From contig JABLUY010000040.1 in assembly GCA_013306675.1 (NCBI GenBank), positions 116,376 to 180,375 on the forward strand: a stretch of 64,000 nt of DNA, in the 5' to 3' direction. Shown here in pieces: positions 4,883 to 57,010 of the stretch. Below the pieces are notes generated by a model. It saw only the letters and a list, made by a program, of their open reading frames with translations. It had not been told where the DNA came from and searched no databases. The stretch's first letter is position 1. Each line of letters starts with the position of its first letter. The position numbers were made by a program, and so were the translations under genes. The stretch comes from Thraustochytrium sp. TN22 (taxonomy: Eukaryota; Sar; Bigyra; Thraustochytrida; Thraustochytriidae).

Positions 4883-7800
4883 TCAGTTGTTCTTGTCGTC
4901 GTCGTCGTCGTCCCGGGCCGCAAAACGATACATGGGGTTGTTGAGGATGCGGTGGAGGTCGTGGGCGGCCTTGGTGTCTCGCGTCGCCTCGTCCAGGAGC
5001 GGCGCGAGTAGGGAGAAGCGCTCATGCGTATTGGAGTGCACGGCGCTGCGGATGACGTCCGGCTCGCCGAAGAGCAGCAGGTGCTGGGACGCGCGCGTCA
5101 TGGCGGTGTAGAGCAAGTTGCGGTTGAGCACGAAGCCGTGGTGACGAAAGATGGGCACCACGACGAGGGGGAACTGCGAGCCCTGCGCCTTGTGCACCGT
5201 GGTGGCGTACGCTAGGTCGAGCTCTGCCCGCGCCATGTCAATGGAGTACGGGTGCACGGAGACCTCGTTGGCGTCGCCATCCCCACCGCGCAGGTCAAGC
5301 GCGTCCTCCATGAAGCTCGCCAGGAGCCGCGTGGTGTTGTTGATCTCCGTCTTGGGCGGCTTGATGGGCTGAAGCTTGAAGTCCTCGATGCGGCCCATGT
5401 TGCCGTTGAAGACATGCTTCTTGTAGCAGTTCTTGTTTTGGATGACCTTGTCGCCCGGCCACATGCCGAGCTTGTCGGCCAGGTCGCGCGCCAGGTTGAA
5501 CTCGTCCTTGGGCCGGTTCTCGATGGAGCGCAGGTAGTTCTCGAGCGGGTTCAGATTGAGCTGCAGCGTTTTATTCAGGTCCTTCACGGCGCCGACGTTG
5601 CCCTTGCGGCGCGGGGTGATGACCTGCATGTCCTCCGTCGGGTCCAGGCCGTGCGCGCGCGCAAAGCGCGGCGCCACGTCCAGCACCATGCGCTCGACAT
5701 CCTCCGTTGTCGGTGCGCAGCGCACAAAGTAGGACTTGCCCGAGCCGTCCTCGGGCGCGGCGAGGCTCGCCGCCGCGTCTTGCGCGTGGTGCGCCGCGTA
5801 GGCGGCTGCGCTGGCCAGTAGTGCCTCAGGGTCCGTCACAGTGTCCAGCGAGGTCGGCGGCTCGCCGTACCGGACCAGCGTCGCGTCGCGCAGAACCTCA
5901 TTGTCCGCGCCCTTTTGGCGAAAGACTTGCGTCAGGCCGCCCGACGGCACGCAGCTGCAGCGCTCCAGGTCGTGCAGGAGATTGCCCTCGCGCACGGACT
6001 GAAGCTGCGCTGGATCCCCCACGAAAATGATCGAGCTTCCATCGGCGACTGCTTCCAACAGGCTGCTTGCTACGCGCAGGTCCAGCATCGACGCCTCGTC
6101 CACAATGATGGTGTTGTACTCGAGAGGCATATTCTTGTTCCGGGAGAACCGGAAGGTCCCATCCAGGAGCTTTGGCTCCAGGAGCCGATGCACGGTGGCC
6201 GCCGGCAGGCCCGTCGACAGGTTCAGGCGCTGCGCGGCACGGCCCGTGGGTGCCGCCACCGCCACGTTGCGACCCTCCGCGATGAGGCGTCGGGCGAGCT
6301 CGCGCATGATGTATGTCTTGCCCGTACCGGCAAAGCCTGTCAGCACGGCGACCTTGGCAGTCATGAGTCTCCCGAGGATCTCCTCCTGCTCGGGAGAAAG
6401 CCCGTGTGCCGGCGGCCCAATACTGTGGATCGGCAGGGAGGTGCGTTCCTCCGGGCGAGCGAGCGGCGCATCGATGATGTCCAAAAGCCGCACGATGACC
6501 TTGGCCTCATTGTAATACAACGCCGCGTCATACACGAAGGTCTCCTCATTCCACGTGCGCGTTGCGAGACGGTACCTATCCTTATACTCCTCGAGTAAAG
6601 CCTCCAGCTCGCCGGGCTCCTCGCCGAGGAGGTGCCGCGCGCCGCGTGCCGCGATGCTCAGCGGGAGACACGAGTGACCCGACGCCTTGGTCCCGTCGCG
6701 CACGGCCTGAGTCACCGCGGCGACAATTCTCGAGTGCCGCAGACGTTCCTCCCCAGGTGCGCATGCGTCGACGCTCCGAAAGCCCACGATCCGTTCCGCA
6801 ACGAGCGAGTACGGGTCGGTCTTGAGGCGGTCCATGAGGTCGTATTCCGTGTAGAGGTCCCGCTTCTTCTTGACGCGCCTGTGAAAGGTGCGAAAGTCTG
6901 TGAAGAGGATGTCACGCTCTACGAGAAAGTCCACGAGCGCGGAGCTCTTCGTGACCTGCCACTCTGCCCGAAGCACATTCGCGAGCTTCGGGCTCAGGCC
7001 CTTGACGGCCTCCGCCAGCCTCTCGGCCGCGGACACGTCACCTTCAAGGATGCTCTGCAGGTCCGTCCCCACCCCGTCCACGATCCGCTTGGCAAGCCCC
7101 GGGCCAAAGCGCTCGAATCGACCAGCCTCCAGGAGCTCTTTCGCCTTGTTCGTCCACCTCTCCGGCGTCACCGGCGTCAGGCTGGTGAGGAGCCGCCGCT
7201 TGGACATTTCGCCTGCCGAGGCCATCTCGTCTCGCTCCGCCGCGAGGATGACTTTGGAAAATGTGCTGGGCGCCCAGGTCGGGTCGTCCTCGGCCCACCA
7301 CTCGGGCAGCTGACCCTCTTGGAGGTCGTCGCCCGCAAAGATAGCCGAAGGCTGCGCGGCGACCGCCGAAGTCATCGCCGGCGCCGCGTTCGAGGTGACG
7401 GTGTCCGCAGCGCCACCACTTGCCGCCTCGGACGCTCCCTGCAGAGTCCCCTTGAACTGTCGCCCAAACTTGGGGTGGTCCACCCAGGTGCCCACAATGC
7501 CGATGGCTTCGCCGGCGTCGGGAATGCGCGTTCCGGCAGAAAACTGTGCCACGAAGTTCACCTTGGTCGCACGCGGCTCCGCGATGTCCAAGGATCCGAT
7601 GATCACAGTGTCTGCGCGGAAGAAGATGCGTCCGATGCTCCCGTCGAGCAACACACTTGATGGGGGCGCCAAGGTCGCCACGGGCTCAGCGCTGGGCTGC
7701 GACTCGGGTGGAGAGGCGACGGCAGCGGGATCTTCTGGCTTCGCCTTGTCGCGCTTGGCCGTCGGCTCGGCCGTCCCGGTCGACGCGTCGACCTCAGGCT

Positions 7801-8272
7801 TGGCTTCCGGCTTGGCCTTGGCCTTGGCCGTGGCCTTGGCCGTGGCCTTGCCGCGTTTCCTCGCATCGACCTCAGGTTCGATGTTTGGCTCGGCCTTGGC
7901 CTTGCCGCGCTTCGCCGCGTCGCCCTCAGGCCTGGCCTCCGTCTCGGCCTTGGCCTTGGCCTTGCCGCGCTTCGTCGCTGCCTTGGTTTGACGCGGGGCT
8001 GCTGCCACCACCTCGGGCTCTTGCGTGGGCAGCTTCTTCTCAGTGGTCAAGGTCGGGGACGTGGTCGCGGCCTTCTTCTTCCTCTTGGTCTTCGTGACGA
8101 CCTTTTGCCTGGCGACGCCCTCGCCCAGGCGCTGGAGGCGCTCCGCCTCGAGCGAGTGGGCGCGCGCGGCCAACTGTGAGCGCATGGCCTTGAAGCAGAA
8201 TGGCCTCGCCTGCGAGCGCATCGCCGCCACGCTCGGTCGCACGCCGGCCGCGGCAGCGGCTGCGAGCAGCAT
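4883..8272 (-). CDS. RecD2-like superfamily 1B DNA helicase, probably organelle-targeted
   Basis: A 1,129-residue protein. All SF1B helicase motifs are present in order: Walker A GFAGTGKT near residue 644, DEASMLD (motif II), FVGDPAQLQSV (motif III), ITPRRKGNVG, GDKVIQNKNCYKKHVFNGNMG, ATTVHKAQGSQF (motif V) and LYTAMTRASQHLLLFGE (motif VI). Before them lies an OB-like segment (VGTWVDHPKFGRQFKG) and a helix-hairpin-helix-like region typical of bacterial RecD2, a 5'-3' helicase of about 750 residues. The N-terminus is Ala/Arg/Ser-rich without acidic residues, like a mitochondrial or plastid presequence, followed by a Lys/Ala/Pro/Glu-repeat linker. In-frame ATGs at 8356 and 8503 are alternatives. 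The C-terminus ends in six aspartates and KNN, drawn from the adjacent triplet array. A bacterial or organellar origin is inferred. Confidence 0.88.
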   Translation of the reverse strand: MLLAAAAAAGVRPSVAAMRSQARPFCFKAMRSQLAARAHSLEAERLQRLGEGVARQKVVTKTKRKKKAATTSPTLTTEKKLPTQEPEVVAAAPRQTKAATKRGKAKAKAETEARPEGDAAKRGKAKAEPNIEPEVDARKRGKATAKATAKAKAKPEAKPEVDASTGTAEPTAKRDKAKPEDPAAVASPPESQPSAEPVATLAPPSSVLLDGSIGRIFFRADTVIIGSLDIAEPRATKVNFVAQFSAGTRIPDAGEAIGIVGTWVDHPKFGRQFKGTLQGASEAASGGAADTVTSNAAPAMTSAVAAQPSAIFAGDDLQEGQLPEWWAEDDPTWAPSTFSKVILAAERDEMASAGEMSKRRLLTSLTPVTPERWTNKAKELLEAGRFERFGPGLAKRIVDGVGTDLQSILEGDVSAAERLAEAVKGLSPKLANVLRAEWQVTKSSALVDFLVERDILFTDFRTFHRRVKKKRDLYTEYDLMDRLKTDPYSLVAERIVGFRSVDACAPGEERLRHSRIVAAVTQAVRDGTKASGHSCLPLSIAARGARHLLGEEPGELEALLEEYKDRYRLATRTWNEETFVYDAALYYNEAKVIVRLLDIIDAPLARPEERTSLPIHSIGPPAHGLSPEQEEILGRLMTAKVAVLTGFAGTGKTYIMRELARRLIAEGRNVAVAAPTGRAAQRLNLSTGLPAATVHRLLEPKLLDGTFRFSRNKNMPLEYNTIIVDEASMLDLRVASSLLEAVADGSSIIFVGDPAQLQSVREGNLLHDLERCSCVPSGGLTQVFRQKGADNEVLRDATLVRYGEPPTSLDTVTDPEALLASAAAYAAHHAQDAAASLAAPEDGSGKSYFVRCAPTTEDVERMVLDVAPRFARAHGLDPTEDMQVITPRRKGNVGAVKDLNKTLQLNLNPLENYLRSIENRPKDEFNLARDLADKLGMWPGDKVIQNKNCYKKHVFNGNMGRIEDFKLQPIKPPKTEINNTTRLLASFMEDALDLRGGDGDANEVSVHPYSIDMARAELDLAYATTVHKAQGSQFPLVVVPIFRHHGFVLNRNLLYTAMTRASQHLLLFGEPDVIRSAVHSNTHERFSLLAPLLDEATRDTKAAHDLHRILNNPMYRFAARDDDDDDKNN

Positions 8273-8606
8273 GGTGGGTGCTGCCGCTACAGGCAGCCGC
8301 GCGAGGTGGCGCAAGGGTCGCTCGGCGATCGAATGTGATTTGCATTTCTTCGTCATCGAGGCGGAAGAGCGCTTCGTCAAACTCGTGCACGATCCCGCGT
8401 TCAACCACCACCACCTCCTCCTCGTCTTCTTGCCAATCGCCCAGAACCACGCCACGACGAGCCAAAAAGGCGCCAGGTCACACTCACCGTCAAGACCAAG
8501 CACGGTCTCTCGATCGACAACTGGTGGCCAAACATACGTCGCAAGGCGCTGTTGCTCATTCGCTTGATCTTTTCTAACTTATAACTTGAGCTTTGAGCTT
8601 CGTAGG

Positions 8607-11054: not shown

Positions 11055-12100
11055 CTTGCCCGCGTCCGGCGCTGCGACGGCCGGCGAGCGCCTCGCCTCG
11101 CTGTCGCTGCTCTCGACACGTCCCGCCTCGCCTCGCGTCGCCTCGACCCGAGCTCGACTCTCTACTCCGCCAGCCGCTGGCCGCCGGCCGCTGGCCGCTG
11201 GCCGCCGGCCGCCGGCCTCGGCCCCGGCCGCCGCCGCCGGGCCGCGCCGCGCCGCGCCGCGTCTCCCCGCGCCGCGCCGCCGTGCGCCTCGAGGAGGATG
11301 GGGTTCTGCTCCTTGGTGGTGGCGGCCTCTGGCTTCGGCGCAGTAGAAGACGTGGTGATGTACAAGTCGATGTTCGTGACGAAGCTGGCCGCAGCGCGGG
11401 CCACGCGACGACCATGTGACGTAACATGCGAGGCGGAGGAACAAGAAAACGTGCTCGCGCTGCACGCACACTGCAAGAGGCTGCGCTGTGCTGCACTGTG
11501 CTGCGCTGCAGAGATGACCGTGATCATTTGAGGTCGCATGGTGCAGTGGGCCTTGGTGCAGCCTGTCTGAGCCGATCTCGAGGAGCCGCCTGCGAGCGGA
11601 CGATCTCCTCTGCCAGTGTTGGACATGGAGAGCCAAACATGATACCCCACCATCGCGACGAGGACTCGAAAAAGGCGAATGGATCACGGCAGGGGCTCGA
11701 GACTCCTCTCGCCTCCAGCGTTTCAAGCAGGGAAAGCCGACAGCCGACGAGGATCGATGGTCTTCATGCTACCAAATTATAAATCAGCACAGCTTCGCGA
11801 GGCAGGCGAGGCAGGCACTAACTGCTTGCCAAGCTTGCTCGGCTTTTGTGAGTAAACATGGAGAAAAGCAGGGGTAACACGGGTAACCCAGCGCGAGCAG
11901 GAGAAGCTTCGCGCCTTGGAGGCGGCAGACTACTACTACTTGCTCCGCGGCGGAGGTCGCGCGCGCGCAGGGCGTCGGCAGCGGCGAGGAGGGCGGCTGC
12001 CCCTGCCGGGCGGGCTGCGGCGGTCGGGCGCTTCGTCGGGGCGCGGCGAGGCGCGGCGGCAGCGGCCGTTGGGATCCATCCATCCTCGCGCACCAGGAGG
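11055..12100. other. divergent intergenic region between XPD and DSS1
   Basis: Shared upstream region of two divergent genes. It contains a minisatellite of GCCGCTGGCC/GCCGCCGGCC words at 11168-11222 and GCGCCGC runs to about 11280. No further gene is supported; the long frames through it are extensions of XPD or DSS1. Confidence 0.55.
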
Positions 12101-12379
12101 ATGCTGAGGTCGAAGAAGAAGACGGAGGCCAAGGGCGCGGCGGCGGCGCCCGCGCACGCGGAGGCCGGCAAGGACGGCAAGAAGTCGCTGCTGATGACGC
12201 TGGAGGACGACGACAGCTTCCCCGAGTTCGAGACGGAGGAGACGAGCTTCCAGCACGCGGTCAAGGAGGACAAGGACGAGCTCGCGGCGCAGGCCGGCCA
12301 GCAGTGGGTGGAGGACTGGGACACGGACCTCGCCATGGACGACTTTATCGGCCAGCTGCGCAAGGAGCTCAAGATGTAA
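12101..12379 (+). CDS. SEM1: 26S proteasome lid subunit DSS1/Sem1
   Basis: A 92-residue acidic protein beginning at the ATG at 12101; upstream in-frame ATGs would add only Arg/Ala-rich sequence. The conserved core is visible: the DDDSFPEFETEE acidic/aromatic site, then WVEDWDTDLAMDDFIGQLRKEL, the W-x-D-W plus C-terminal helix signature of the family (human DSS1 is 70 residues). Sem1 stabilises the proteasome lid and also joins TREX-2 and BRCA2-type complexes. A basic Lys/Ala-rich N-terminal extension of about 30 residues is additional to the human protein. It is divergent from XPD. Confidence 0.93.
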   Translation: MLRSKKKTEAKGAAAAPAHAEAGKDGKKSLLMTLEDDDSFPEFETEETSFQHAVKEDKDELAAQAGQQWVEDWDTDLAMDDFIGQLRKELKM

Positions 12380-12533: not shown

Positions 12534-15500
12534 TCACGTCGGCTGGAGGCCATCGTAAGGGCTGAGGTTGTACACGTTGGTGAGGTCGTCGCGAGCGCCG
12601 GCACCCTCTGTGGCGTCGGCAAGCCAGGCGCCGAGCTCGTAAAAGCCGTAGGCCATGGCGTAGTGCAGCGCCGTCTGGCCGGCGGCGTTCTGATGGTCGA
12701 CGTAGCTGCCCTTGTCGATGAGCAGCTTGGCCACCTTGATGCGACCATTCTGGGCCGCAATGCTGAACAGCGTGTTGCCGTGCTCGTCCGGCTTGTTGAT
12801 GTGCCACTGGAGGCGATCCAGCTCGAGGGAGTACCGCGTGCCAAGTCCCTCTGCGTATTGCTCCTTGACGTCGGCCGGGTCGAAGCGGCGGTCCGGGAGG
12901 CCCTGCAGCGCCTCGCGCATCTCACTGAGCTTGCCGTGGCGCGCCATGGACATGAGCTTGTCCGGATGCGCGCCAATGCCGCCCGCTCCTCCTCCCCCGC
13001 CGCCGCCGCCGCCGCCCGCGTCCGCCGCGTCTAGCACGGTGCCACTGCTGTCGATGGACGGCATCGGCATCGTGGTCCCGCTGCCTGTCGCGTTGCCGGC
13101 CGAGTTGCGCGCCGCCTGGATGCTGAGCAGGCTGCTCCCCGAGATGCTCGTGTTGGCGATGGACTGCGCACCGCGCGCCTCCTCTGTGCGCCGCAGCTTG
13201 GTGATGGAGTTGAGAATCTTCTTGCGGTGCAGGTTGTGCTCGATGCCCAGCGTGTTGCGCAGGTCGTCATCGTTGAGATCGTAAAGGAAGGCGCCGTCGA
13301 TCGCCGCGTCCGCGAAGCTCGTGCGGTACTGCTGCAGCTTGAGCGTACCAAGCCAGTCGCCAACGTCCTCCACGGTCCAAGACGAAACATTCAGCGCGTC
13401 CTGGTCCTCCGGCATCTGGCCCTTTTGGAATCCCGGCCGGAAGTGGCCCTCGGCTGCCATCGCGCCGCCCTGGCCGACATCGCCGGCCTGAGCGGCGCCT
13501 CCGGGGCCTCCGGGGCCGCCAGGGCCACCGCCACCGCCACCGCCCCCGCCACCGCCGGCCGCGCCAGAGAGAAGCGCCTGCAGGTCGCCCTGGCCTGCGC
13601 TCGTCCCGGCTGGCCCGTTCAGCACGGTGTTGAGCGCGCCCACCTTGCGCATGGCGCGCACCATGTTGAGGCTGCTAAAGTACGTGAGCGACATGCTCAT
13701 AAAGCCGAACTTCATGAGCGACTCCGTGGACTGCATCAGGTTGTTGGCCTGCTGCTGCTGCTGCGGCGTAGGGCCGGCGTACGGCGAGCCGCCCATGCCC
13801 GCGGCGCCCGCGCCCGGCCCGCCCGCACCCGGCCCACCCGCCGCGGCCAGCGCCGTGGCCGCCGTCTCCGGCAGCACGAGCTCGCCACGGGTCTGCTGGC
13901 GGCGCTTGATTTGATCCAGCTCCTGCTGCTGCTCCTCGAGCAGGACGACCAGCTTGCGCTCCAGGTCGCGCAGCTCCTCCTCCTTGCCCTGGCGCGTGCG
14001 GTCGATAGCCTGCAGCTTCACCTCGAGCGTCTTGAGGCGCTCCTTGCGGTCCGCGATCTTGCCGAGCATGATGCCAAACTCGTGGTCCAGGCGCATCTTC
14101 TGCTCACGCAGCTCGATGCGCGCCTCCTCGTCCAGCACGCCCTTGGCCTCGGTCTCCACGGCCGTCAGCTCGTGCATCTCCTTCTCCAACGCGCGCACGC
14201 CCTTGTCGAACTCGGCGATCTCGCTCAGCAGCGCCTCCACCTTCTCCTCCGTCTCCACCTTCTCGCGCGTCAGCACGGAGACCTCACTCTGTAGCCGCGT
14301 GCCGTGCAGCTTGTGCTCCAGCAGCATCTGGCGCCCAAAGTCGATGCCCTGCGACTGCGCCTTGCTGAAGAGGTACTTGTCGCGCTCCAGCGAGGCGCGC
14401 CCACGCCCGCGGTGACCGCGGTACACGCGCTGGATATCCACGGCCGCATTGCGCTGTCGCCGCAGCTTCCAGGTCAGCTTGCGGGCGATGTGCGAGCGCA
14501 CCATGTTCTGGATTGCCATGGCGGCGCGGCGCCGCTTGAACTTGATGTCCTCCACGCGTCGCTTGCCCTGCCGCCCGCGGAAGATGCGCTGCATATGCTT
14601 GGCCGCCGTCACCTGCTGGCGGCGCTCGCGAAACAGGTCGCGGCCGGCCTTGCCACGCCAGCACCTCTGCACAAGCCGCGCGGCCCACTCCTCTTGCCGT
14701 CGCTGCTCCAGCTCGTCCCTGGCCAGCTTCGCGCGCCACTTGGACTGGATCATCAGCGCGGCGCGCGTCGTGCGCAGCTTCTCCGCCAGCGTGCGTGCCA
14801 GGAACGCCCGCCACGCGCGCTGGATCACCGAGGCGGCGCGCACCAGCTTGGCGAGCCGCTTGCGGTTCCTCGCGATGCGCCACTGCATGTACTCGCGCAC
14901 CTCGGGCACCTCCACGGGCTGAAGCACGAGCTTCTGGTTGTTGCCGCCCCCGCTGGCGCCGCCGAAGCGCCCGTCCGCAGCGTCTTCCTCGTCGCTGTCC
15001 GGGTGAAGGCCCTTGCGCCGCTTTTGCGCCCAGTCGAAGTTGCGCATCGTCGGGTCGAACGAGATGGCCTGCTGGTGCTGCTCCTGTTCCGAGGCGCCGC
15101 CCTTGTGGTGCGCCGCCGCCGCCGCCGAGCCCGAATTGGCGCCCTGCTGCTTGCGGTGGTGCGACACGGCGTCACGCGCACTGCGCCCGGTCTCCTCACG
15201 GAAGCGCTGCCAGCGGGCGTGTTCCGCGCGTGGGTTCTCCGCAGGGTCCTCACTCTCGTTCAGGCGGTCCACCTCGCTCGCCGTGGACTCGCGCGATGCG
15301 GGCCGCCCCGCCGCACCGTGCGCCCCGCGATGCGCCGGCGCGTACGGGTTGGGCTCCACCGTGCCCTCCTGGCGCACCTTGTCCAGAGTGCCCAGCACGT
15401 TGTCGATGAAGCGGTCCTCGAAGAACTGCTGCGGCTGCTGCTGCGTGTTGTCGCCCTCGCGCCCGCCGCGCCGGTTGCCGCGCTGGCGTCGCGCCCGCGC

Positions 15501-18500
15501 CGGCGACTTGGCCGAGGTGCTGTCTTCGTCCTGCGTGGGCAGAAACGCCACGTCATGGTTCTCGTGGTAGCCCGTGCAGAGCTGCTCCACGAGGTCCGAG
15601 ACCGGGCGGCGGCACTCCTGGAAGAGCTCATGGCCTCCGCGCAGCCACACCACGCAGGGCCGCGCGCGGTCCTTGAGACACTGCCGAATCGAACGCACCT
15701 CGCCGCCTCGCGACTTGACGAAGGGCTCCACGTGCAGTGGCTTCACCAGGCCGCCCTGCGATGACTGCACGAGGATGAGCGGCTTGTCCATGCGCGCTGC
15801 CTGCTGCCGCAGGTCTGCGTGAGCCAGCGACCCCTTGCAGATCTGCATACGGCCCTCAATCGTGATGGGATTATGAACCGCCGTGTACAGGTTGAGCGCC
15901 AACGGCGTGGAGACCTTGCTCAGGTAAGCCGAGGAGAAGAGGAAGCGCGTGTAAAAGTACACGGGCAGATCGGGCCGCGTCGCCGGCGAGCACGAGAACA
16001 CGTTCATGCAGTCATGGAGGACGCCGGCCAGGTGCGGGTCTACGTGGGTGAAGCCGTTCAGACTCAGCAGCGCGCGCATCTTGGGTGGCTTGCAACGCGA
16101 CGCGTAGTGCAGCGCAATGTTGGCACCGTTACCAAACCCCATGAGGTAAAAGGGCGCCGCATACGGCCCGCGCGTCTCGAACTCGCGAGTTCCATTGTAG
16201 TCCACGTGCCGCAAGAGGGCGTCCACGCACGGGTCGTAGTACTCGTTGTTGAGCACCACGTCGCGCCGCCACTCCGTAAATGCCTGGCCCGGCAGATTGA
16301 ACAGCAAAACCTGCAGACCCGGATACTTGGTCACGATCGGCCGGAAGAAGATCTGCATCGTCTCGTACGTGTCGAAGAAGTCATGCACCACGACGATGTT
16401 GAAGAGCCGCGAGCCCTGCCGCTTGCTGCCCAGCACCATGTACGGAAAGGCCGTGTCGGCGTCCATCTGAAAGACTCCCGTCGTGGGAGCGTCTTCCTCG
16501 AGGTTGTTGCGCGGCACCGGCAGCGTCATCTTGACAATGTCCGAGGACGTCGTCAGACCGCTCGTGGCGGGCCGCATCGAAGGCAGCTCGCTCTCGTAGC
16601 CCGCGCGCCGGCGCCGCGCAGCCTCCTTGGATAGCTGCTGCAGCGCCTCGGGCGAGGGCTGGTGTTGTGGGACGGCGGCGCGCACCGTGTTGAGCAAGGA
16701 AGTCTCGTCGACCGGCTTGCTCACGCAGCCGTCGAAGCCCACCTCCATGTACATACGAAGGTCCTCTGGGGAGGTTTCCTCGGAGAAGGCGATGAGTGGG
16801 ATGCGCCGCGCGTCCGGATCGCCCTTCTTTTCACGCTTGCGAAGTAGCTTCGCCACCTCGACGCCGCTCAGCGTGGGCAGGAGGGTAGACGCGATGAGCA
16901 AGTCGTACGGCGCGGCGCCGCTCAGCTCAAGCGCCTCGGGGCCGTCCGCTACGGCTGTCACCTCGTACTCCGCGTCGCGCAGCATGCCACAGACCAGCTC
17001 GCGCAGGTCTTCGTCGTCCTCCGCCAGGAGGATGCGGCCCTTGTATCCTGTGTCCTCCTGGCCGCGACGCCCGGGCCCATGGCGGCCACGCTTTTTATTG
17101 GCCTGGCGCTGCTGCTCCTGCTGCTGCTGCTGCTGTTGCTGCCGCTGCTTCTTGCCGCGCGACGGGCTCCAAGGCGCCTCCAGCGAGTCTGGTTGCATGT
17201 TGTACTTGCGCTCGCGCGTGCCGCGCAGATAGCTCTCGAGGTCGGCGAACTTGGCAAGACTCTCGTGTTCCTCGCGCAGGCGCGTGGCCTCGGCGCGAGT
17301 GCATGTGGCTCCGTCGCTCGCCTTAATGACGGCGTTCGCCACATTGCGCGTCGCCTCGGCGACCTTGCGCTCCTCTTCGGCGCGCAGGGTCTCCTTGGTT
17401 GGCAGCGTCGGCGTCGATTTGCGGTGCGGCAAGATCTCCGGCATCTCCTGCATGTAGCGGCGCGCGGACCGAATTGGGGACGGCGTTCTCGTGCGCTCCG
17501 GCACCGCATGAGAATCCTCGCCGCTTGACTCGCGCGATCGGGAGGCGCGGTCCAGCTCACGCCGCCGCTGGCCCTTGACCGAGAGCCGCTCGATGAGCTT
17601 GTCTCGCGCCGTGGCGCTCTCGTGGTGCTTGCGGCCCGCAGGCCGCAGCGTTTCGCTGGCGAGCAGCTCGCGCGCGCGGTCGAGCGTGCAATAGATGCGG
17701 TAGCAGTTCGGGCAGACGGTGATGTGCTCGTAGTAGTGGCTGAGCGGGACGCCGCCGTGCTCCTCGAGAAGGTGGTCGCGCGGCTCAAGGCCGTCGATCC
17801 CGCGGTCCTTGGGCCTTGCGAAGGACTTGGCGCCCGGGGCGCGCTCACGCTCCAGGCGCGCCATCTGCTCGGCCGAGGCGCCCTTGATGCCCATGCGCTG
17901 GATGAAGCCGCGCTTCTCCTTGCGCGCCATGGCGATGGATTTCATCGGTAGCCGGTAGCTCTCCAGCTGCGGCTTCGCGTGGTGCTGGATGCGAAGCGTG
18001 ACCTCGGGCCGCGGACCAGTCGCCTCGAGGCGGCGCGCCAATGCGCGCAGCGCCTCCTCATGACTTTGCGGCGTCGACGTGTTCAGGCCCAGCTTGAGCG
18101 CCATGGCCTCCAGCTCGCTGCCGGAGAACAACCGGCGCACGAGCGCCTGGCTTCCGCCGCCCGCCGCCAATGCCGTAGGTTCGCCGTCCTCGCCCAGCGT
18201 CAATGGTTCCTGGACGGGAAAGTCGCAGAAGTCGCCGCGGCAGTTGAACGGGTTCGGGTAGTGCTGGTCGATGACGGGCGGCGCACTCGCGCTCACCTGG
18301 CCCTGCTCATTGAGCGCCGCGCCGCTCGTTCCGATGATGGAGAAGTTACTGCCGGCCACCACCCGCGAGCGCGCAGGTGCATGCGCTGCGGACGCTGCGG
18401 ACTCCTCAGCAACGGCGGAGACAGCTGCCGGGGTGCCTGCCCCTTCATCCTCTTCGCTTGCATTTTCGTGCCCGGCATTGGTGCCATCTGGGACGACGTC

Positions 18501-19460
18501 CTCCACCTTGACCGTGGCCTGGCCGACCTGGACACCCATTGCCACGGCGTCCGTTGCCGTGGCGCGGGGCGACCCGAAGCGCGTGCGGTCTTCAGACCGT
18601 CGTCGCCGTGGCCGGCGCGGTCCGCCGCTCGTAGAGGGCGAGCCAATCATTCCATCGGCGCCGAACGCGAGCAAATCCACTGGCCCATCCTCGCCAGCGG
18701 CGGCGACACCCAGCTGCAGACGCGCTGGCCTGGGCGCCTCCTCGTCGTCGGTGCCGCGACGGCCGGAGATGGCCGCCTGGTCGATCCATGTGAGCCAGGG
18801 CTGCTCGTTTCGATCCATGAGGAAGTCGACCTGCAGCTCATGTACGGTGACCCCGTGCTGCTGCTCCAGGTAGCGCACGATGGTCAGGATGCTGTCGTGC
18901 AGCAAGTTGCGGAGCGACTGCGCGCGACACCGGTTGGGCTCGCCGAGGCGGCGATCGCCCGAAGCCGGGTCCCAGGTGAGCGGCCGCGCGTGCGCCTCCA
19001 AGGCGCCCTTGTCGGCCGGACCTGGCGCGGTGCGGCGCCACTCGCACACGTAGAGGTTGCGAACGCGCTGCGTGCCGTACGGAATGAAGGTCTGCAGCGC
19101 CGTGGCGGAGCTGAGCTCAAAGTCCGTGCCGAGAGCCGCGAGCGGAACGAGCCTCTTGGCGCCGGAGCGTAGATAGGCTATGCACGAGACCTCTTGCGCG
19201 TTGTGAGCGCGCCCGAAGCGGCTCAAGAGCATCTCCACGTTGGTGGCACGCTTCTTGACGACCTCGCCGGTCTTGGAGGTGAGCAGCCAGCGGTCGACCT
19301 CGCCCGTGGTCTTCATGAGCACGGTCTCGGCCACGTGCAGCTGGCACTTGCTCTGCGCGTGCAGCGACCATAGCTGCCGCAGCGCCCAGGTGCCCGCCTC
19401 GCGCGTCATGGCGGCGTCCGCGGCCATCCTGTTGCTGCTGCCGTCCGCGCCGCTGCTCAT
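12534..19460 (-). CDS. giant scaffold: degenerate receiver, alpha/beta-hydrolase-like, IQ, coiled coil, SAM and ankyrin domains
   Basis: A 2,308-residue protein with no intron needed; the start at 19460 (MSSGADGSSN) is chosen over 19799, which adds a Cys/Arg-rich stretch. Domains in order: an N-terminal globular region (about 20-230) of unknown type; a CPNCYRIYC motif near 580; a receiver domain at about 805-927 with its acidic cluster (AEDDED) and lysine (VSKPVD), but Ser858 where the phosphoacceptor Asp should be (DLLIASTLLP); an NDRG-like alpha/beta-hydrolase fold at about 1007-1300 with GFGNGAN, Asn1111 replacing the nucleophile Ser; about six IQ motifs at 1543-1687 for calmodulin; a coiled coil at 1697-1853; Gly-rich linkers; a SAM domain at 2022-2090; and ankyrin repeats at 2213-2307. 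Both catalytic domains look inactive, suggesting a Ca/calmodulin-linked scaffold. The role is unknown. It is divergent from kinesin-2. Confidence 0.85.
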   Translation of the reverse strand: MSSGADGSSNRMAADAAMTREAGTWALRQLWSLHAQSKCQLHVAETVLMKTTGEVDRWLLTSKTGEVVKKRATNVEMLLSRFGRAHNAQEVSCIAYLRSGAKRLVPLAALGTDFELSSATALQTFIPYGTQRVRNLYVCEWRRTAPGPADKGALEAHARPLTWDPASGDRRLGEPNRCRAQSLRNLLHDSILTIVRYLEQQHGVTVHELQVDFLMDRNEQPWLTWIDQAAISGRRGTDDEEAPRPARLQLGVAAAGEDGPVDLLAFGADGMIGSPSTSGGPRRPRRRRSEDRTRFGSPRATATDAVAMGVQVGQATVKVEDVVPDGTNAGHENASEEDEGAGTPAAVSAVAEESAASAAHAPARSRVVAGSNFSIIGTSGAALNEQGQVSASAPPVIDQHYPNPFNCRGDFCDFPVQEPLTLGEDGEPTALAAGGGSQALVRRLFSGSELEAMALKLGLNTSTPQSHEEALRALARRLEATGPRPEVTLRIQHHAKPQLESYRLPMKSIAMARKEKRGFIQRMGIKGASAEQMARLERERAPGAKSFARPKDRGIDGLEPRDHLLEEHGGVPLSHYYEHITVCPNCYRIYCTLDRARELLASETLRPAGRKHHESATARDKLIERLSVKGQRRRELDRASRSRESSGEDSHAVPERTRTPSPIRSARRYMQEMPEILPHRKSTPTLPTKETLRAEEERKVAEATRNVANAVIKASDGATCTRAEATRLREEHESLAKFADLESYLRGTRERKYNMQPDSLEAPWSPSRGKKQRQQQQQQQQEQQRQANKKRGRHGPGRRGQEDTGYKGRILLAEDDEDLRELVCGMLRDAEYEVTAVADGPEALELSGAAPYDLLIASTLLPTLSGVEVAKLLRKREKKGDPDARRIPLIAFSEETSPEDLRMYMEVGFDGCVSKPVDETSLLNTVRAAVPQHQPSPEALQQLSKEAARRRRAGYESELPSMRPATSGLTTSSDIVKMTLPVPRNNLEEDAPTTGVFQMDADTAFPYMVLGSKRQGSRLFNIVVVHDFFDTYETMQIFFRPIVTKYPGLQVLLFNLPGQAFTEWRRDVVLNNEYYDPCVDALLRHVDYNGTREFETRGPYAAPFYLMGFGNGANIALHYASRCKPPKMRALLSLNGFTHVDPHLAGVLHDCMNVFSCSPATRPDLPVYFYTRFLFSSAYLSKVSTPLALNLYTAVHNPITIEGRMQICKGSLAHADLRQQAARMDKPLILVQSSQGGLVKPLHVEPFVKSRGGEVRSIRQCLKDRARPCVVWLRGGHELFQECRRPVSDLVEQLCTGYHENHDVAFLPTQDEDSTSAKSPARARRQRGNRRGGREGDNTQQQPQQFFEDRFIDNVLGTLDKVRQEGTVEPNPYAPAHRGAHGAAGRPASRESTASEVDRLNESEDPAENPRAEHARWQRFREETGRSARDAVSHHRKQQGANSGSAAAAAHHKGGASEQEQHQQAISFDPTMRNFDWAQKRRKGLHPDSDEEDAADGRFGGASGGGNNQKLVLQPVEVPEVREYMQWRIARNRKRLAKLVRAASVIQRAWRAFLARTLAEKLRTTRAALMIQSKWRAKLARDELEQRRQEEWAARLVQRCWRGKAGRDLFRERRQQVTAAKHMQRIFRGRQGKRRVEDIKFKRRRAAMAIQNMVRSHIARKLTWKLRRQRNAAVDIQRVYRGHRGRGRASLERDKYLFSKAQSQGIDFGRQMLLEHKLHGTRLQSEVSVLTREKVETEEKVEALLSEIAEFDKGVRALEKEMHELTAVETEAKGVLDEEARIELREQKMRLDHEFGIMLGKIADRKERLKTLEVKLQAIDRTRQGKEEELRDLERKLVVLLEEQQQELDQIKRRQQTRGELVLPETAATALAAAGGPGAGGPGAGAAGMGGSPYAGPTPQQQQQANNLMQSTESLMKFGFMSMSLTYFSSLNMVRAMRKVGALNTVLNGPAGTSAGQGDLQALLSGAAGGGGGGGGGGGPGGPGGPGGAAQAGDVGQGGAMAAEGHFRPGFQKGQMPEDQDALNVSSWTVEDVGDWLGTLKLQQYRTSFADAAIDGAFLYDLNDDDLRNTLGIEHNLHRKKILNSITKLRRTEEARGAQSIANTSISGSSLLSIQAARNSAGNATGSGTTMPMPSIDSSGTVLDAADAGGGGGGGGGGAGGIGAHPDKLMSMARHGKLSEMREALQGLPDRRFDPADVKEQYAEGLGTRYSLELDRLQWHINKPDEHGNTLFSIAAQNGRIKVAKLLIDKGSYVDHQNAAGQTALHYAMAYGFYELGAWLADATEGAGARDDLTNVYNLSPYDGLQPT

Positions 19461-20118
19461 GCCGCGCCGCAGCCTCGCAGGCACGCAGCCGCCGGCGCAA
19501 AGCCAATGCCCAGAGAGCGCGCCGCCAAAAGAGCGCGCGCACGCGCCGCTCAGGCACCGCGCACACTTGGCGCTGAAAGACCGGTCGAGTCCGCAGTTCC
19601 GTGTCCGTTGAAAGCGAGCGATTTCCCGAACCACCGTGAGGTTCTCCAGCCTGCCCGCTACTCGGAGAAAAGCGCCGCGCGACCGGTTGCACGCAGCGCC
19701 ACACGACGCCGAGCGGCCTGGCGGCGCGCAGGACCCAGTTGGCCAGGCCAGCTGGTTTATTTGATCGACTGCCCCGCGCGCAGCCGGCTTGGGCGTCAAC
19801 GTCCACTCGCCCAGCGCAACGGGACACTTGGCCGCGCTCCCCTTGCGTCAAGAGTGCGTGCGTGCGTGCGCGCAGCAGCCTGAGCGAGCAGACAGCAGGC
19901 AGACTCTGATCGAAACCGTCGCGGCGGCGGAGGCGGTGCAGTGGCGGCTGCAGCAGTGACAGGCGCGGCAGGCGCGGTCGGCGGGAGGCAGCCTCGCTTG
20001 CCTCGCTTGCCTCGCTTGCCTCGCTTGCCTCGCTTGCGTGCGGCCCGTCGCTGCGTGTCCGGACGAGTCTTGCGTGCGACGGAGGCAAGGACGGGGAGAG
20101 GCTTTGCGCGCGGGCAAC
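19461..20118. other. divergent promoter region of the scaffold gene and kinesin-2
   Basis: A 658-bp region between two divergent start codons. It holds five copies of CCTCGCTTGC at 19990-20037, about 80 bases before the kinesin start. No other gene is seen. Confidence 0.55.
19990..20037. repeat. 10-bp tandem repeat (CCTCGCTTGC)5
   Basis: Five near-perfect copies directly upstream of the kinesin-2 coding region. Confidence 0.9.
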
Positions 20119-22632
20119 ATGGCGGGCGGGGAGTCCAAGTCCGCGGAAAAGTATGCGCGCGACCTGGCGCGGGGCAAGGCCGGCGAGTGCGTGCGCGTGG
20201 TCGTGCGCGTGCGGCCGCTCAACAGCACGGAGAAGCAGGAGGGCTACGAGGCCGTGGCGATTGTGGACGACCAGCGCGCGTCCATTAGCCTGAAGAACCC
20301 GAACGCCGCGGCGTCGGAGCCGCCCAAGGTGTTCACCTTCGACCAGGTGTACGGGCCGACTGCGCAGCAGAAGCAGATCTACGACCGCACGGCGGCAGCG
20401 ATCGTGGAGAGCGTGTGCGAGGGCTACAATGGCACCATCTTCGCGTATGGTCAGACGGGCGCAGGTAAGACGCACACGATGGAGGGCTGCCGCGACCCGC
20501 CCGAGCTCAAGGGCATCATCCCGAACTCCTTCAAGCACATCTTCGACAAGATCGCCTCGGAGGGCTCGGACAAGAAGCAGTTCCTGGTGCGCGCGAGCTA
20601 TCTGGAGATCTACAAGGAGGAGTGCCGCGACCTGCTGGCGCACAACTCGAAGAACAAGCTGGAGCTCAAGGAAAGCATGGACTCGGGCGTGTACGTCAAG
20701 GACCAGCGCGTGGAAATCGTCAAGAGCGTGGCGGAGATCGACCGGCTCATGCAGGAGGGCAACGGCAAGCGTAAGGTGGGCGCAACTCGCATGAACCAGA
20801 CGTCTTCGCGCTCGCACTCCATCTTCAGCATCATCGTGGAGACCAGCGAGCTGGACGAGTCGTCCGGGGAGGCGAAGATCCGCGTGGGCAAGCTGAACCT
20901 GGTCGATTTGGCGGGTTCCGAGCGGCAGTCCAAGACGGGCGCCACGGGCGAGCGGCTGGAGGAGGCGACGAACATTAACCTGTCGCTGTCGGCGCTGGGC
21001 AACGTCATCTCGGCGCTGGTGGAGTCCAAGTCGCAGCACATTCCGTATCGCGACTCGAAGCTGACGCGCCTGCTGCAGGACTCGCTGGGCGGTAACACGA
21101 AGACTGTGATGATTGCGAACTGCGGGCCGGCGGACTTCAACTACGACGAGACGCTGTCGACGCTGCGGTACGCGAACCGCGCCAAGAAGATCAAGAACAA
21201 GCCCAAGATCAACGAGGACCCGAAGGACGCGATGCTGCGCGAGTTTCAGGAGGAGATCATGCGGCTCAAGGCGCAGCTGGCGGCCGCAGCGAACGGGCAG
21301 CCGCTGGACCCGAGCATGCTGGACGGCGCGGCGGCCGCGGCGGCCGGGGGCAGCGGCGGCGGCGGCAAAGCGGCTCTGGACTCGCGCCATATTGACGACA
21401 TTCGCGAGGAGGTGAAGATGGAGATGCAGCGGCAGGCGGAGGAGGACCGGCAGCGCATTCAGCGCGAGGCGCAGGAGCAGCTGGACAAGATCACCGAGGA
21501 GAAGCGCATGTCTGAGAAGGAGCGCGCCGACCTCAAGGCACGCCTGGAGCGCGAGGGCCAGCAGGCGGCGCGCGCCAAGCAGGCCAAGGAGGCGCTGCAA
21601 AAGAAGCTCAAGATGATGGAGCAGCGCCTCTTGGTGGGTGGCATGATCATGGACAAAGCGGCCAAACAAGAGGAGGAGCTGCGCAAGGCGGAGATCGAGC
21701 TCGAGGAGCGCCGCGTCCAGGAGCGCATCCTGGCGCGCAAGGTGATCGAGAAGGAGGAGGAGATGATGCTCAAGGAGGAGCGCTACTCGTCGCTCCAGGA
21801 CGAGGTGGAGGTCAAGACCAAGAAGCTCAAGAAGCTGTGGCAAAAGTACCAGGGCGCCAAGACCGAGGTCAAGGACCTCGAGGAGAGCTTTCAGCAGGAG
21901 CGCGAGGATATGCTGCACACCATTCGGGAGCTCACGCGCCAGCTCAAGCTCAAGGAGCTCGTGATCGACCACTTCATCCCGACCGACGAGGCCGACAAGC
22001 TCAACGCGCGCGCGCACTGGGACGAGAAGCAGGACCAGTGGCGCATCTCGCGCCTCGAGTTCGCCGGCAACCAGCTGCGCCCGGCGCGGCCCATCAGCTC
22101 CTCGCGCGCGCGCCGCCCCGAGACCGAATACGCCGCGCACCGAAAGCAATACGACGACAACCCGCGCTACAAGGCGGAGAACGTTGTCGCGCTCGACCTC
22201 GACGTCACGGAGCGACAGACTGCCGACTATGAGGGCGCAGCGATGGGCCAGCGCGTGCAGGCTGCCCTCACTGCGGCTCTCGAGTCTGGCGAACCAGACG
22301 TCTCCTTTGGTGCCGCGCCGGAGAACTTGCCCACCTGCAATCCGTACCTGAGCTACAACCCGGACGACGCTGGCGCCACCGCGGGACCTGCGGCCACCAC
22401 TTCGTCCTCCTCCTCGCGCCGCTCGTCCAAATCGCGCGGCTCCGGCAAGCGCCCCGGCACGGCCTCCCGCGCCGGCCGCGACCGTCGCTCGACCTCGAAC
22501 CAGGAGGGCCCAACGATGAGTCTCTTGTCCCACCACCGCCACCGCGCTGCCCTGGACGACGACAACGACGACGACGAGTCCAAGGACGACCAGATGTATC
22601 CCTCGGCCCGCGGCCTGGTCAGCCGGGGCTGA
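20119..22632 (+). CDS. kinesin-2 family motor (KIF3/FLA10-like)
   Basis: An 837-residue N-terminal kinesin. The motor domain (about 20-360) has the P-loop GQTGAGKTHTM at about 111-121, switch I NQTSSRSHSIF and switch II LVDLAGSER, followed by the neck motif ANRAKKIKNKPKINEDPKDAMLREF in the form typical of kinesin-2. A coiled coil runs from about 440 to 650, then a basic, Ser-rich tail. Kinesin-2 drives anterograde intraflagellar transport, so the organism probably builds cilia. Heterotrimeric and homodimeric kinesin-2 cannot be told apart from this sequence. The start at 20119 gives MAGGESKSAEK; the frame is open 81 bases further upstream, but that stretch overlaps the 10-bp repeat zone. It is a single exon. 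Confidence 0.94.
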   Translation: MAGGESKSAEKYARDLARGKAGECVRVVVRVRPLNSTEKQEGYEAVAIVDDQRASISLKNPNAAASEPPKVFTFDQVYGPTAQQKQIYDRTAAAIVESVCEGYNGTIFAYGQTGAGKTHTMEGCRDPPELKGIIPNSFKHIFDKIASEGSDKKQFLVRASYLEIYKEECRDLLAHNSKNKLELKESMDSGVYVKDQRVEIVKSVAEIDRLMQEGNGKRKVGATRMNQTSSRSHSIFSIIVETSELDESSGEAKIRVGKLNLVDLAGSERQSKTGATGERLEEATNINLSLSALGNVISALVESKSQHIPYRDSKLTRLLQDSLGGNTKTVMIANCGPADFNYDETLSTLRYANRAKKIKNKPKINEDPKDAMLREFQEEIMRLKAQLAAAANGQPLDPSMLDGAAAAAAGGSGGGGKAALDSRHIDDIREEVKMEMQRQAEEDRQRIQREAQEQLDKITEEKRMSEKERADLKARLEREGQQAARAKQAKEALQKKLKMMEQRLLVGGMIMDKAAKQEEELRKAEIELEERRVQERILARKVIEKEEEMMLKEERYSSLQDEVEVKTKKLKKLWQKYQGAKTEVKDLEESFQQEREDMLHTIRELTRQLKLKELVIDHFIPTDEADKLNARAHWDEKQDQWRISRLEFAGNQLRPARPISSSRARRPETEYAAHRKQYDDNPRYKAENVVALDLDVTERQTADYEGAAMGQRVQAALTAALESGEPDVSFGAAPENLPTCNPYLSYNPDDAGATAGPAATTSSSSSRRSSKSRGSGKRPGTASRAGRDRRSTSNQEGPTMSLLSHHRHRAALDDDNDDDESKDDQMYPSARGLVSRG

Positions 22633-23133
22633 GCGAGAGCACGTGTCGAAAGGCGCGCGCAAGAAGAGAACCAACCAGCCTCCAGCCAGATCTGTGTCCC
22701 TGAGAAGAGGTCACGCTCTCTAGCTAGAGTAACAGGCGAAGAACAAAAAATGACGGCAAGAAGGCTTTGTGCGACGGTGACGTTTTGCACCAAGAAGGTG
22801 ACGCCGCGAGCAAAACAAAGACGCCGCGAGCAAGAAGCCATGAAGACGCCTCGATCGAAAGGACGCACAAGCCGGCTATTGTGCGTTGCCAACTACAAAT
22901 ACAGGGAAGAAGGCGAAGAACGCACTGGGCAAGAAGGCGAAGAACACACTGGGCAAGAAGACTCTTGAAATTTCACTCGCTGCTGAATTAGTAGCTAAGA
23001 ATCGTTGTGCTACCCACCGCCTTGCCCCTATCCCTCCCCAACCCCTTTCTTCAGGTCGGAAAGGAGCCAAAAGTCACATCTCACGTCGTGCACGTCGTGC
23101 ACTGCACGCAAACCCGGCTGGCTGGCCGAGCGC
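22633..23133. other. convergent gap with short minisatellite
   Basis: Between the stops of kinesin-2 and the truncated globin. It contains a CTCTAGCTAGAG palindrome near 22717-22728, two copies of GACGCCGCGAGCAA around 22800-22835 and a 27-bp tandem repeat at about 22908-22966. No gene is supported. Confidence 0.55.
22908..22966. repeat. 27-bp tandem repeat, about two copies
   Basis: The word AGAAGGCGAAGAACRCACTG followed by GGCA is repeated twice, ending in a partial third copy. Confidence 0.8.
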
Positions 23134-23700
23134 TCACTGCCGGCTCTGGCTCTCCGTCGTCGTCTCGGATTCGGCAGCCTCGGACTCCACCACGGACTCC
23201 TTGCTCTGCGCCTCGGCCTGCGCCATCTCCTTCTGCCGCTCGCGCGCCTTGCCGACGCCCAGGACGAGAAAGAAGGCCGTGTGCTTGAAGAAGGCCATCA
23301 TGCGGCGCCGCGAGTCCTCGTCGATGGCCGGCGTCTTATCCATGGCCGCCTCCATGTGCTCGATCCAGCGCCTGGCGCCCGCGTGCGTCATGCGAAACGG
23401 CATGTGCCGCCCGATGAGCGCCGGGTGGCCCTTGCGCTGCGAGAAGAGCGGCGGCCCGCCCATGCGCTGCACCAGGAACGTCCACTGGTTCACGATCGCC
23501 TCGTCCTTGTCGCTCGTCGCGAAGATGTCCTTGAACCACGGCGCCTCATCGTCCTCAAACACCGCGTTGTAGAAGTTCGTCGACAGCGTCTGGAACGCCT
23601 CCAGGCCCAGGCGCTCGTACAGGTTCACCTCGTCGATCACGAAGGCATCCTCCTGCGCCACGCCCGACAGCACGCACGCCTCGGCCTGCACGCCCTGCAT
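23134..23700 (-). CDS. group II truncated hemoglobin (plant GLB3/trHbO-like)
   Basis: A 188-residue protein from the ATG at 23700. It has the diagnostic trHb2 segment MGGPPLFSQRKGHPALIGRH, including the proximal heme-ligand His (F8, in IGRHMPF), Trp G8 in ARRWIEHM and Tyr B10 in FYNAVF. The match to plant-type GLB3 around F8 is very close. Such globins bind O2, NO or sulfide; the physiological role varies and is not shown here. The N-terminal 30 residues and a charged C-terminal tail of about 40 residues (KARERQKEMAQ onward) extend beyond a minimal 120-residue fold. The frame continues upstream to 23853, but that part coincides with a direct repeat and is not conserved-looking. Confidence 0.92.
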   Translation of the reverse strand: MQGVQAEACVLSGVAQEDAFVIDEVNLYERLGLEAFQTLSTNFYNAVFEDDEAPWFKDIFATSDKDEAIVNQWTFLVQRMGGPPLFSQRKGHPALIGRHMPFRMTHAGARRWIEHMEAAMDKTPAIDEDSRRRMMAFFKHTAFFLVLGVGKARERQKEMAQAEAQSKESVVESEAAESETTTESQSRQ

Positions 23701-23761
23701 CGCCTCGGTCTGCCCGCCCGCCTGCGCCGCCTCCTTGCGCCGCGCGCGCCAATCGGCTCTG

Positions 23762-24100
23762 CAGGTGCGCTTGGCAAGGCAGCTCGTCGCTCTCTCATCA
23801 AGGCAAGCGTCCGCGACGTTGGTCGTCAGCTTGGTCACCGTCAGTGAGACCACCTTTTCCTACTACACTGGCAGCGTCCGGCGGCCCGGCGGCGGGCCCA
23901 GGCACATCGATCGTGCAGCGGCGAAGCGACGGCAGAGCAGCCAGGTGCGCTTGGCAAGGCGACTCGTCGATTCAAGGCAAGCGTCCGCGTTGTTGGTGAG
24001 ATCAACCTGTTCCTTGACAGCGATTGTGCAGCGGCGATCATGGGCACCACAATCAAGAGCCAAGCGAACTCCAAGGCGAAGCGACGGCAAGGCAGCAGGC
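23762..24100. repeat. imperfect direct repeat, period about 180 bp
   Basis: CAGGTGCGCTTGGCAAGGC followed by CTCGTCG and AGGCAAGCGTCCGCG occurs at 23762-23820 and again at 23942-23990. A second shared block, GTGCAGCGGCGA plus GAAGCGACGGCA, occurs around 23913-23933 and 24027-24090. Confidence 0.8.
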
Positions 24101-56044: not shown

Positions 56045-57010
56045 GACAGTGCTGAGCACCAAGTCTGCGACGCAAGCGCTGAGCACTCCACCTGTGACAC
56101 AAACGCTGAGCACTAAACTGCGACGCAGGTGCTGAGCACCAAGTCTGCGACCTGCGACGCGGTGCATCGTAGTGCGGCTGGTGCGCAGCGGAACCCGTCT
56201 TGAGCGATCGCATGCGCTGCGCCTGTCAAAGGGGGCTGATCAAGTCAAGTAACAAGAGATTTGGCTTCCGCGCCAGTGACGCCACGCCTTACACACTTGT
56301 TCGCACTTCGCGCTGCTCGCCAGCCATCGCTGTGGAAAGAAAGGAAGAGCAACCGGTGACACTGCGCCGCTGCGCGCCATGGCCACTCGTCTGCTGAGGT
56401 GCGCACGTGGACGGCGGGCCGTGGCGCCCCCTTCTCCACGCCACGGGCGTGCCTGCAATGAAGCATGGGCCGTGGCCTCCGCTCGGGCTCGCAGACCTGG
56501 CCCGCGCGGCGCGGCGGCGCGGCTCCGCGCACGGCGCGCAGCGTACGCGGCGCGGCGGCAGCGCAGTCAATCCAGGCTGCAGTGACAGGCGTGGCATCCC
56601 AGGATGGGGTGTGCGCCGGAGCCGGGTGACAAAATCGCGCGCGCCCTCCTCGCGATCAAGGCGCCGCAAGAAGGCCAGGCCCCGAGCGCGAGCAAGCAAA
56701 AGGCAATCAATCAAACATCCTTCGCGAGCAGGCGAGCAGGGGCCGCAGGCGCAGGCGAGCGCGAGCGGCGAAGGCCGGCAGGCCGCGCGCGGCGTGGCGG
56801 CGGCAGCGGCGCGCGGCGCGGCGCAGCGGCGACGCGACGCGACGCGACGCTGCTGGCTGGGCGTCACGGCGGCCAACGCGCCAGGCGCGGCCGCGAGGCT
56901 GACGGCCGGGACGGGCAAGGACAAGGACAAGGACAGGGACGAGGACAAGGACTGGAGCTACGCGCGGCCCGGAGTGAGCGCGAAAGCGAGCCGGGGCACG
57001 GCAGGAGATC
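56045..57010. other. gap with minisatellite, no supported gene
   Basis: It starts with the GCTGAGCAC minisatellite, then GC-rich DNA with GCGACGCGAC and GGACAAGGACAA repeats near 56830 and 56915-56950. No gene is supported before the transporter. Confidence 0.5.
56048..56165. repeat. GCTGAGCAC/CTGCGACGCA minisatellite
   Basis: Four imperfect units of about 30 bp containing GCTGAGCAC and TGCGAC, immediately after the zinc-module gene. Confidence 0.85.

Follow-up and report, generated by a model that had tools for sequence, protein, structure and literature searches.

A predicted thraustochytrid scaffold protein with an aspartate-less receiver and a nucleophile-less hydrolase domain, and a paralogue with a dynein-type domain in the equivalent slot

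We analysed a stretch of 64,000 nucleotides, hereafter the window, from the genome of Thraustochytrium sp. TN22 (G000:C343:116376-180375; genome of 37.9 Mb in 453 contigs). The GC content of the window lies between 0.62 and 0.74 when read in 2 kb steps, and its protein frames are long and uninterrupted. On the minus strand we found a single open frame of 2308 codons, here called the scaffold gene (Table 1), whose presumed start is the ATG at 19460, with the openness of the frame extending upstream to a TTG at 19799. A kinesin-2 type motor gene runs divergently from it; the presumed start codons of the two are 658 bases apart, and a bacterial-type promoter scan of the shared upstream stretch returned no promoter-like site. 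Tail to tail with the scaffold gene, 154 bases off, lies a gene of the DSS1/SEM1 family (11858-12379, plus strand). The window also holds a bacterial-like truncated globin (23134-23853, minus strand; Pfam Bac_globin E 2.1e-33) and a RecD/YrrC-like helicase with a long and basic N-terminal extension (4883-8503, minus strand). A PfaA-type polyunsaturated fatty acid synthase scored 2539.7 bits when its in-frame neighbours were included (cut-off 1010.1), and near it, on the opposite strand, is a second synthase-like frame of 2083 aa with matches below cut-off; this pairing of PfaA and a second synthase is an arrangement of thraustochytrids and, with the 18 full dynein stalk matches of the genome, suggests a flagellate labyrinthulomycete.

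At the mean stop frequency of the window a run of 2308 codons should contain approximately 34 stops, a rough figure because that mean includes coding frames, and the GC3 of the scaffold frame stays between 0.75 and 0.93 in each 200-codon block. Antisense frames can also be long in DNA this rich in GC (e.g., 1185 aa at 19117-22674, minus strand), so homology is the decisive evidence for the gene. Our search of the same genome with the hydrolase region of the scaffold retrieved a frame in contig C22 (44% identity, E 9.5e-70; the search was repeated from the C22 side) and, as two pieces of one frame, another in contig C79 (E 9.2e-6 and 4.9e-5); we refer to them as paralogues A and B. In two-sequence BLASTP searches the scaffold aligned with paralogue A along the Cys module (E 2e-7), the hydrolase (37% over 428 columns, E 1e-73) and the half that contains the IQ motifs, coil, SAM and ankyrin parts (27% over 862 columns, E 8e-55). 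The initial annotation had described one continuous frame, and this is what we observed: the 2308 codons are open, GC3 is steady and paralogue A is collinear in a single frame. On the evidence of these alignments the scaffold gene is real and is predicted to encode a single protein. The sequence comes from a single assembly, and one could argue that at least two genes, or an assembly or sequencing error, mimic one protein and its lost catalytic residues. Such an artefact is very improbable given the continuous frame, the uniform GC3 and the flanking parts of paralogue A, which follow in the same order in one frame; moreover, at least two base changes are needed to turn Asp into Ser at residue 858 (the TCT codon is two changes off GAT and three off GAC), and the hydrolase nucleophile column is Gly in all three paralogues. 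The open frame, the GC3 and the paralogue A alignment led us to discard the two-gene or misassembly reading.

Table 1. Position and basis of the features of the scaffold gene, its kinesin neighbour and its two paralogues (window coordinates unless a contig is given).
Feature	Position	Strand	Basis
Scaffold gene	12534..19460	minus	Single open frame, 2308 aa; paralogue alignment over several regions, order kept
N-terminal region, residues 19-230	18771..19406	minus	No Pfam match; apparently related to regions of two further proteins from this genome
CRGDFC, residues 407-412, first Cys pair of putative zinc site	18225..18242	minus	CxGDFC invariant 3/3
YYEHITVCPNCYRIY, residues 576-590, second Cys pair	17691..17735	minus	VCxxC and IY invariant 3/3
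Pseudo-receiver, residues 809-930	16671..17036	minus	Pfam Response_reg and alignment of 24 own-genome matches
Ser858 codon TCT at phosphoacceptor Asp column	16887..16889	minus	Receiver alignment
Pseudo alpha/beta-hydrolase, about residues 1000-1300	15561..16463	minus	Pfam Abhydrolase_1 scores and profile comparison
GFGNG, residues 1108-1112, Gly1110 at nucleophile position	16125..16139	minus	Profile and three-way alignments
Gly1236, probable catalytic acid position	15753..15755	minus	Asp in paralogue A, Ser in paralogue B
His1277, probable catalytic His position	15630..15632	minus	Kept in 3/3 paralogues; role judged from its position close to the C-terminus of the domain
Six IQ motifs, residues about 1541-1690	14391..14840	minus	Loose pattern; Pfam
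Probable coiled coil, residues about 1700-1860	13881..14363	minus	By eye from sequence; aligned with paralogue A
FGFMSMSLTYFSSLNM motif, residues about 1911-1940	13641..13730	minus	Related forms in both paralogues
SAM domain, residues 2027-2090	13191..13382	minus	Pfam E 1.2e-16
Ankyrin repeat tail, residues 2219-2306	12543..12806	minus	Pfam E 1.2e-8
Kinesin-2 type motor, divergent neighbour	20119..22632	plus	Best PDB match KIF3B, E 4.7e-144; Pfam Kinesin
Paralogue A	G000:C22, L037:429-8351	minus	P0003, 2640 aa
Paralogue B	G000:C79, L039:2602-9735	minus	P0004, 2377 aa

The N-terminal 600 residues of the scaffold match no Pfam family at E values up to 10, and they show 25% and 21% identity to paralogue A and to a coiled-coil protein of contig C358, respectively; the alignment of residues 19-230 with paralogue A covers 64 columns (E 0.001). 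This part of the protein contains two cysteine pairs, CxGDFC and VCxxC-IY, that likely form a zinc site (the Cys4 module). The C358 protein (L050 and L045), a long coiled-coil protein, carries the same module at its N-terminus, so the module occurs in proteins of different plan.

Next in the frame is a receiver-like domain, which matches the Pfam Response_reg family (PF00072) at residues 810-926 with 61.0 bits over a cut-off of 30.2 (E 1.4e-16). Our receiver search of the genome gave 24 matches, the scaffold gene among them; within the other 23, the receiver segments of L011 and L012 are identical and L031 and L032 are near copies. The initial annotation had placed Ser858 where a phosphorylatable Asp is expected, and the alignment confirmed it: Asp occupies this column in 23 of the 23 other own-genome matches and also in the seven bacterial relatives of the scaffold receiver (7/7). 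The retention of the acidic cluster and the lysine was borne out as well, since the acidic pair and the Lys are kept in 24/24 own-genome receivers, scaffold included, and the scaffold site retains E814, D815, S893 and K915. We then used a second alignment, of 22 own rows (the self locus and one copy were dropped) and seven bacterial rows, in which the T+1 residue is Glu in the scaffold and Ala, Gly or Thr in all 29 others. Small T+1 residues are tied to access to the phosphorylation site in the relevant passage of a pseudo-receiver review (PMC12632262), and the Glu thus argues against phosphate reaching the site of the scaffold receiver. A Cys at K-3 was also considered as a mark of inactivity and dropped, given that the aromatic residue is missing there in 15 of the 29 other receivers too. 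The same review, where it gives a definition, describes a pseudo-receiver as a domain identified as a receiver but without the residues needed for phosphotransfer (PMC12632262). Judged by its residues, the scaffold receiver is a pseudo-receiver, because Ser858 replaces the Asp and a Glu stands at T+1. According to the survey figures in that source, the Asp is missing in 2.0% (3,111/152,269) of sampled bacterial receivers (PMC12632262), so Asp-less receivers are a class already known.

The seven bacterial receivers came from a genome_contigs scan with the scaffold receiver and are 27-33% identical to it. In a tree of 30 rows the scaffold receiver grouped with these seven (96/84), but the rows had been preselected for similarity and the branch is long, so the tree does not settle the origin of the receiver. 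As for the identical receiver segments mentioned above, L011 and L012 (G000:C37:43990-44346, minus, and 56134-56490, plus) lie in equally long frames on opposite strands ~12 kb apart, which could reflect a recent duplication in inverted orientation or an artefact of assembly.

The domain that follows resembles an alpha/beta-hydrolase. The Abhydrolase_1 family (PF00561) scored 15.5 bits on the scaffold segment, below its cut-off of 25.8, while in paralogue A the segment reached 26.6 bits, just above the cut-off, and the whole protein 22.0, below it. We compared a profile of the three paralogues (A1) with a hydrolase-family profile made from eight frames (18 own-genome matches gave ten loci, of which nine were tried and eight were usable), and obtained a 94.2% probability (E 1.1e-7) over 87 columns only; in the controls, none of 60 column shuffles exceeded 0.5%, reversal of the profile gave 0.0% and a receiver profile 0.3%. 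A PDB sequence search with the scaffold hydrolase gave no significant match. AlphaFold2 without an alignment produced an unusable model of the hydrolase (pLDDT 34.9) and a low-confidence one of the receiver (pLDDT 44.7), so both folds rest on sequence profiles. By the profile comparison, the hydrolase domain appears to be real but diverged.

The profile alignment pairs GFGNG of the scaffold with GHDWG of a hydrolase-family protein, and hence the nucleophile column of GxSxG corresponds to Gly1110, with Asn1111 as the next residue. The initial annotation had given Asn1111 as the residue in place of the Ser; that residue proved to be the wrong one and was rejected as the lost nucleophile, although the wider claim of a hydrolase without its nucleophile holds, via Gly1110. 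The initial annotation also lacked the probable loss of the acid, the preserved His1277, the N-terminal Cys4 module and the paralogues. Since the column is Gly in the scaffold and in paralogues A and B alike, the inactivation probably is older than the duplications that gave rise to them. The catalytic acid of the scaffold is probably lost too, with the identity of its column resting on a weak D14 alignment (E 0.15); the 87-column profile match stops before the acid and His positions. Membership of the NDRG family, suggested by a motif, was considered and set aside, as the Pfam matches listed with E values of up to 10, where the HMMER filters drop most weak matches, do not include Ndr (PF03096).

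In the C-terminal half, a loose pattern matched IQ motifs seven times in all. Six matches form an array (starts at residues 1546, 1571, 1597, 1623, 1650 and 1676), and the seventh, at 1035, was set aside because it lies inside the hydrolase. Pfam alone counts three IQ stretches (E 6.9e-9), so the earlier estimate of about six motifs stands as six in the array by pattern and three by Pfam; the SAM domain and the ankyrin repeats of the initial annotation were both found by Pfam (Table 1). Ankyrin tails 48% and 47% identical to that of the scaffold are present in L040 (G000:C200) and L041 (G000:C88). Both proteins are large, WW domains occur in one and EF hands in the other, and the match to the scaffold is limited to the tail. 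SAM-like stretches were also observed in a 2696-residue frame with many near-identical repeats of the REGDRVEARYKGGSKYYKGK type (L043, G000:C104) and in a giant frame with many C2-type-like domains followed by EF-hand-like and SAM-like stretches (L044, G000:C398), the latter described by eye except for the SAM match.

Paralogue A shares with the scaffold the N-terminal region with its Cys4 module, the pseudo-hydrolase (with GVGNG, 44% identity), the IQ motifs, the coiled coil, the FMSMSL motif, the SAM domain and the ankyrin tail, all in one frame. It differs in having a dynein-type microtubule-binding domain where the scaffold has the receiver, in retaining the Asp at the probable catalytic acid position, and in a long extra charged coil, seen by eye, ahead of the IQ motifs. 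The dynein-type domain was identified as PF12777 at residues 729-839 (47.6 bits, cut-off 24; E 1.5e-12). As the match spans profile positions 93-208 of 344, we took this part to be the microtubule-binding head and not the long stalk coil. When compared with two dyneins of the same genome, the region gave E values of 3.7e-14 and 8.6e-12 (small database); the genome has 18 full dynein stalk (heavy-chain) matches. A hidden dynein-type domain in the scaffold was considered and rejected, since none was found with Pfam or in the comparison with the own dyneins (small database). Two non-dynein frames, L048 (C353) and L049 (C416), gave weak dynein-stalk matches below cut-off in the genome search; in the Pfam scan the C353 frame reached 19.3 bits against 24 and showed a WW domain above cut-off, and the C416 frame had no dynein-type match.

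Paralogue B shares the pseudo-hydrolase (with GVGVG, 27% identical across the aligned part), an FTMTLMYF motif and two IQ motifs, and it differs in that its IQ motifs are at the C-terminus and its coils, judged by eye, are very long. Receiver, SAM and ankyrin are all absent from its Pfam matches at E up to 10. Divergent from paralogue B lies a gene for a fusion of a PP2C phosphatase with a cyclic-nucleotide-binding domain (L038:7825-9900, plus strand, G000:C79).

Taking these results together, we propose, with about as much confidence for as against, that the gene encodes a single large non-enzymatic Ca2+/calmodulin scaffold with non-catalytic docking modules, perhaps placed on microtubules or in the flagellum. 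Calmodulin is predicted to load the IQ stretch and so make the scaffold Ca2+-responsive; the coiled coil and the SAM domain would multimerise it, and the ankyrin tail and both dead domains would hold partners. The slot, flanked by the Cys4 module and the pseudo-hydrolase, may act as an exchangeable docking head that sets the target: it would bind microtubules in paralogue A and a partner or ligand in the scaffold. The family would work on microtubules, most likely those of the flagellum of the swimming stage. The idea that two neutralised domains serve as binding or sensing modules was already part of the initial annotation: both do appear neutralised from their residues, and the most parsimonious view is that they are used for binding.

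In regard to the site, the microtubule or flagellar placement is backed by the head of paralogue A, the 18 dynein heavy-chain matches of the genome, the kinesin-2 neighbour and the depletion of IQ, EF-hand and dynein-stalk domains reported, in the part of the study that treats them, for downy mildews without zoospores (PMC6264045); these are oomycetes and so likewise stramenopiles. We consider the chances of this placement roughly even, because these supports do not test the scaffold itself; as flagellar evidence, the kinesin neighbour and the domain-class correlation are circumstantial. The same scaffold could instead sit away from the flagellum in a labyrinthulomycete cell, for instance at the cortex, or at the bothrosome and the ectoplasmic net, under Ca2+/calmodulin control and with no microtubule role. 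Nothing in the scaffold itself indicates microtubule binding, as checked for the dynein-type domain only, and IQ, SAM and ankyrin modules are no hallmark of flagellar proteins. Thraustochytrid-like cells, moreover, build ectoplasmic nets (PMC12221091). Nevertheless, we regard a non-flagellar site as rather unlikely in view of the dynein-type microtubule-binding domain in the equivalent slot of paralogue A and of IQ-domain genes that, in the comparison presented in PMC6264045, track flagella in oomycetes.

The dead domains might still sense, which would make the scaffold a ligand or phospho-sensor: a Ser/Thr kinase could phosphorylate Ser858, or a metal could still bind to the acidic pair, and a small molecule could occupy the pocket of the pseudo-hydrolase, in which the His is retained. 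The preserved E814, D815, S893 and K915 of the receiver site and the conservation of His1277 in 3/3 paralogues are consistent with such a role, as is a weak profile similarity to hydrolase-type strigolactone receptors that is not significant (E 0.15). On the other hand, the Glu at T+1, against Ala, Gly or Thr in each of the 29 others, and the nucleophile missing from all three paralogues, with the probable acid lost in two of the three, make a sensor a doubtful prospect, of the same low rank as the non-flagellar site; it overlaps with the other readings, and the odds given to them are not exclusive. Returning to the docking scaffold, its most specific form is a flagellar Ca2+/calmodulin scaffold family built on a dead hydrolase core, in which an exchangeable slot holds either a dynein-type domain or an Asp-less receiver as docking head. 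We put this forward tentatively, at somewhat less than an even chance; if true, components of motors and of two-component systems would each have been taken up at one and the same structural position.

Relatives and precedents were also searched for elsewhere. The viral_contigs scans with the hydrolase alignment, the whole scaffold and the receiver yielded no relatives, and a full-text literature search, mostly of open-access papers, found no paper on the scaffold architecture; PMC10072465 had no bearing on it, and ankyrin, IQ motif, SAM domain, dynein, calmodulin and response regulator are all absent from the main text of PMC12221091. Taken singly, the parts of the scaffold are of known kinds; we met their combination nowhere in the literature searched. 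The initial annotation knew of no described protein with this exact order and allowed that stramenopiles may have related ones; paralogue A has the same plan minus the receiver, so the order of the scaffold is not unique. In the review cited above, the switching of pseudo-receivers is at one point termed a mystery (PMC12632262). An Asp-less receiver in a calmodulin scaffold that has a slot-swapped paralogue offers a concrete and testable case of a signalling domain reused for docking. Our results also add a family of hydrolase-like proteins in which loss of the nucleophile probably came ahead of the duplications and, in paralogue A, a non-dynein protein that bears a dynein-type microtubule-binding domain.

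Three known systems help to place the scaffold. The NDRG proteins have a hydrolase fold with Gly at the nucleophile position. The scaffold family is like them in this Gly, and unlike them it retains a His at the probable catalytic position, with Ndr not among the Pfam matches listed. The microtubule-binding domain of dynein heavy chains (PF12777) appears in the slot of paralogue A that is equivalent to the receiver, and not in the scaffold. Finally, PleD is the best PDB match of the scaffold receiver, and its second receiver, a dimerisation adaptor, aligns with it too. This second receiver is an example of the aspartate-less receivers, which are receivers by sequence without the phosphoacceptor Asp, just like that of the scaffold. 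Unlike that of PleD, the receiver described here belongs to a eukaryotic scaffold and shares its chain with hydrolase, IQ, SAM and ankyrin modules.
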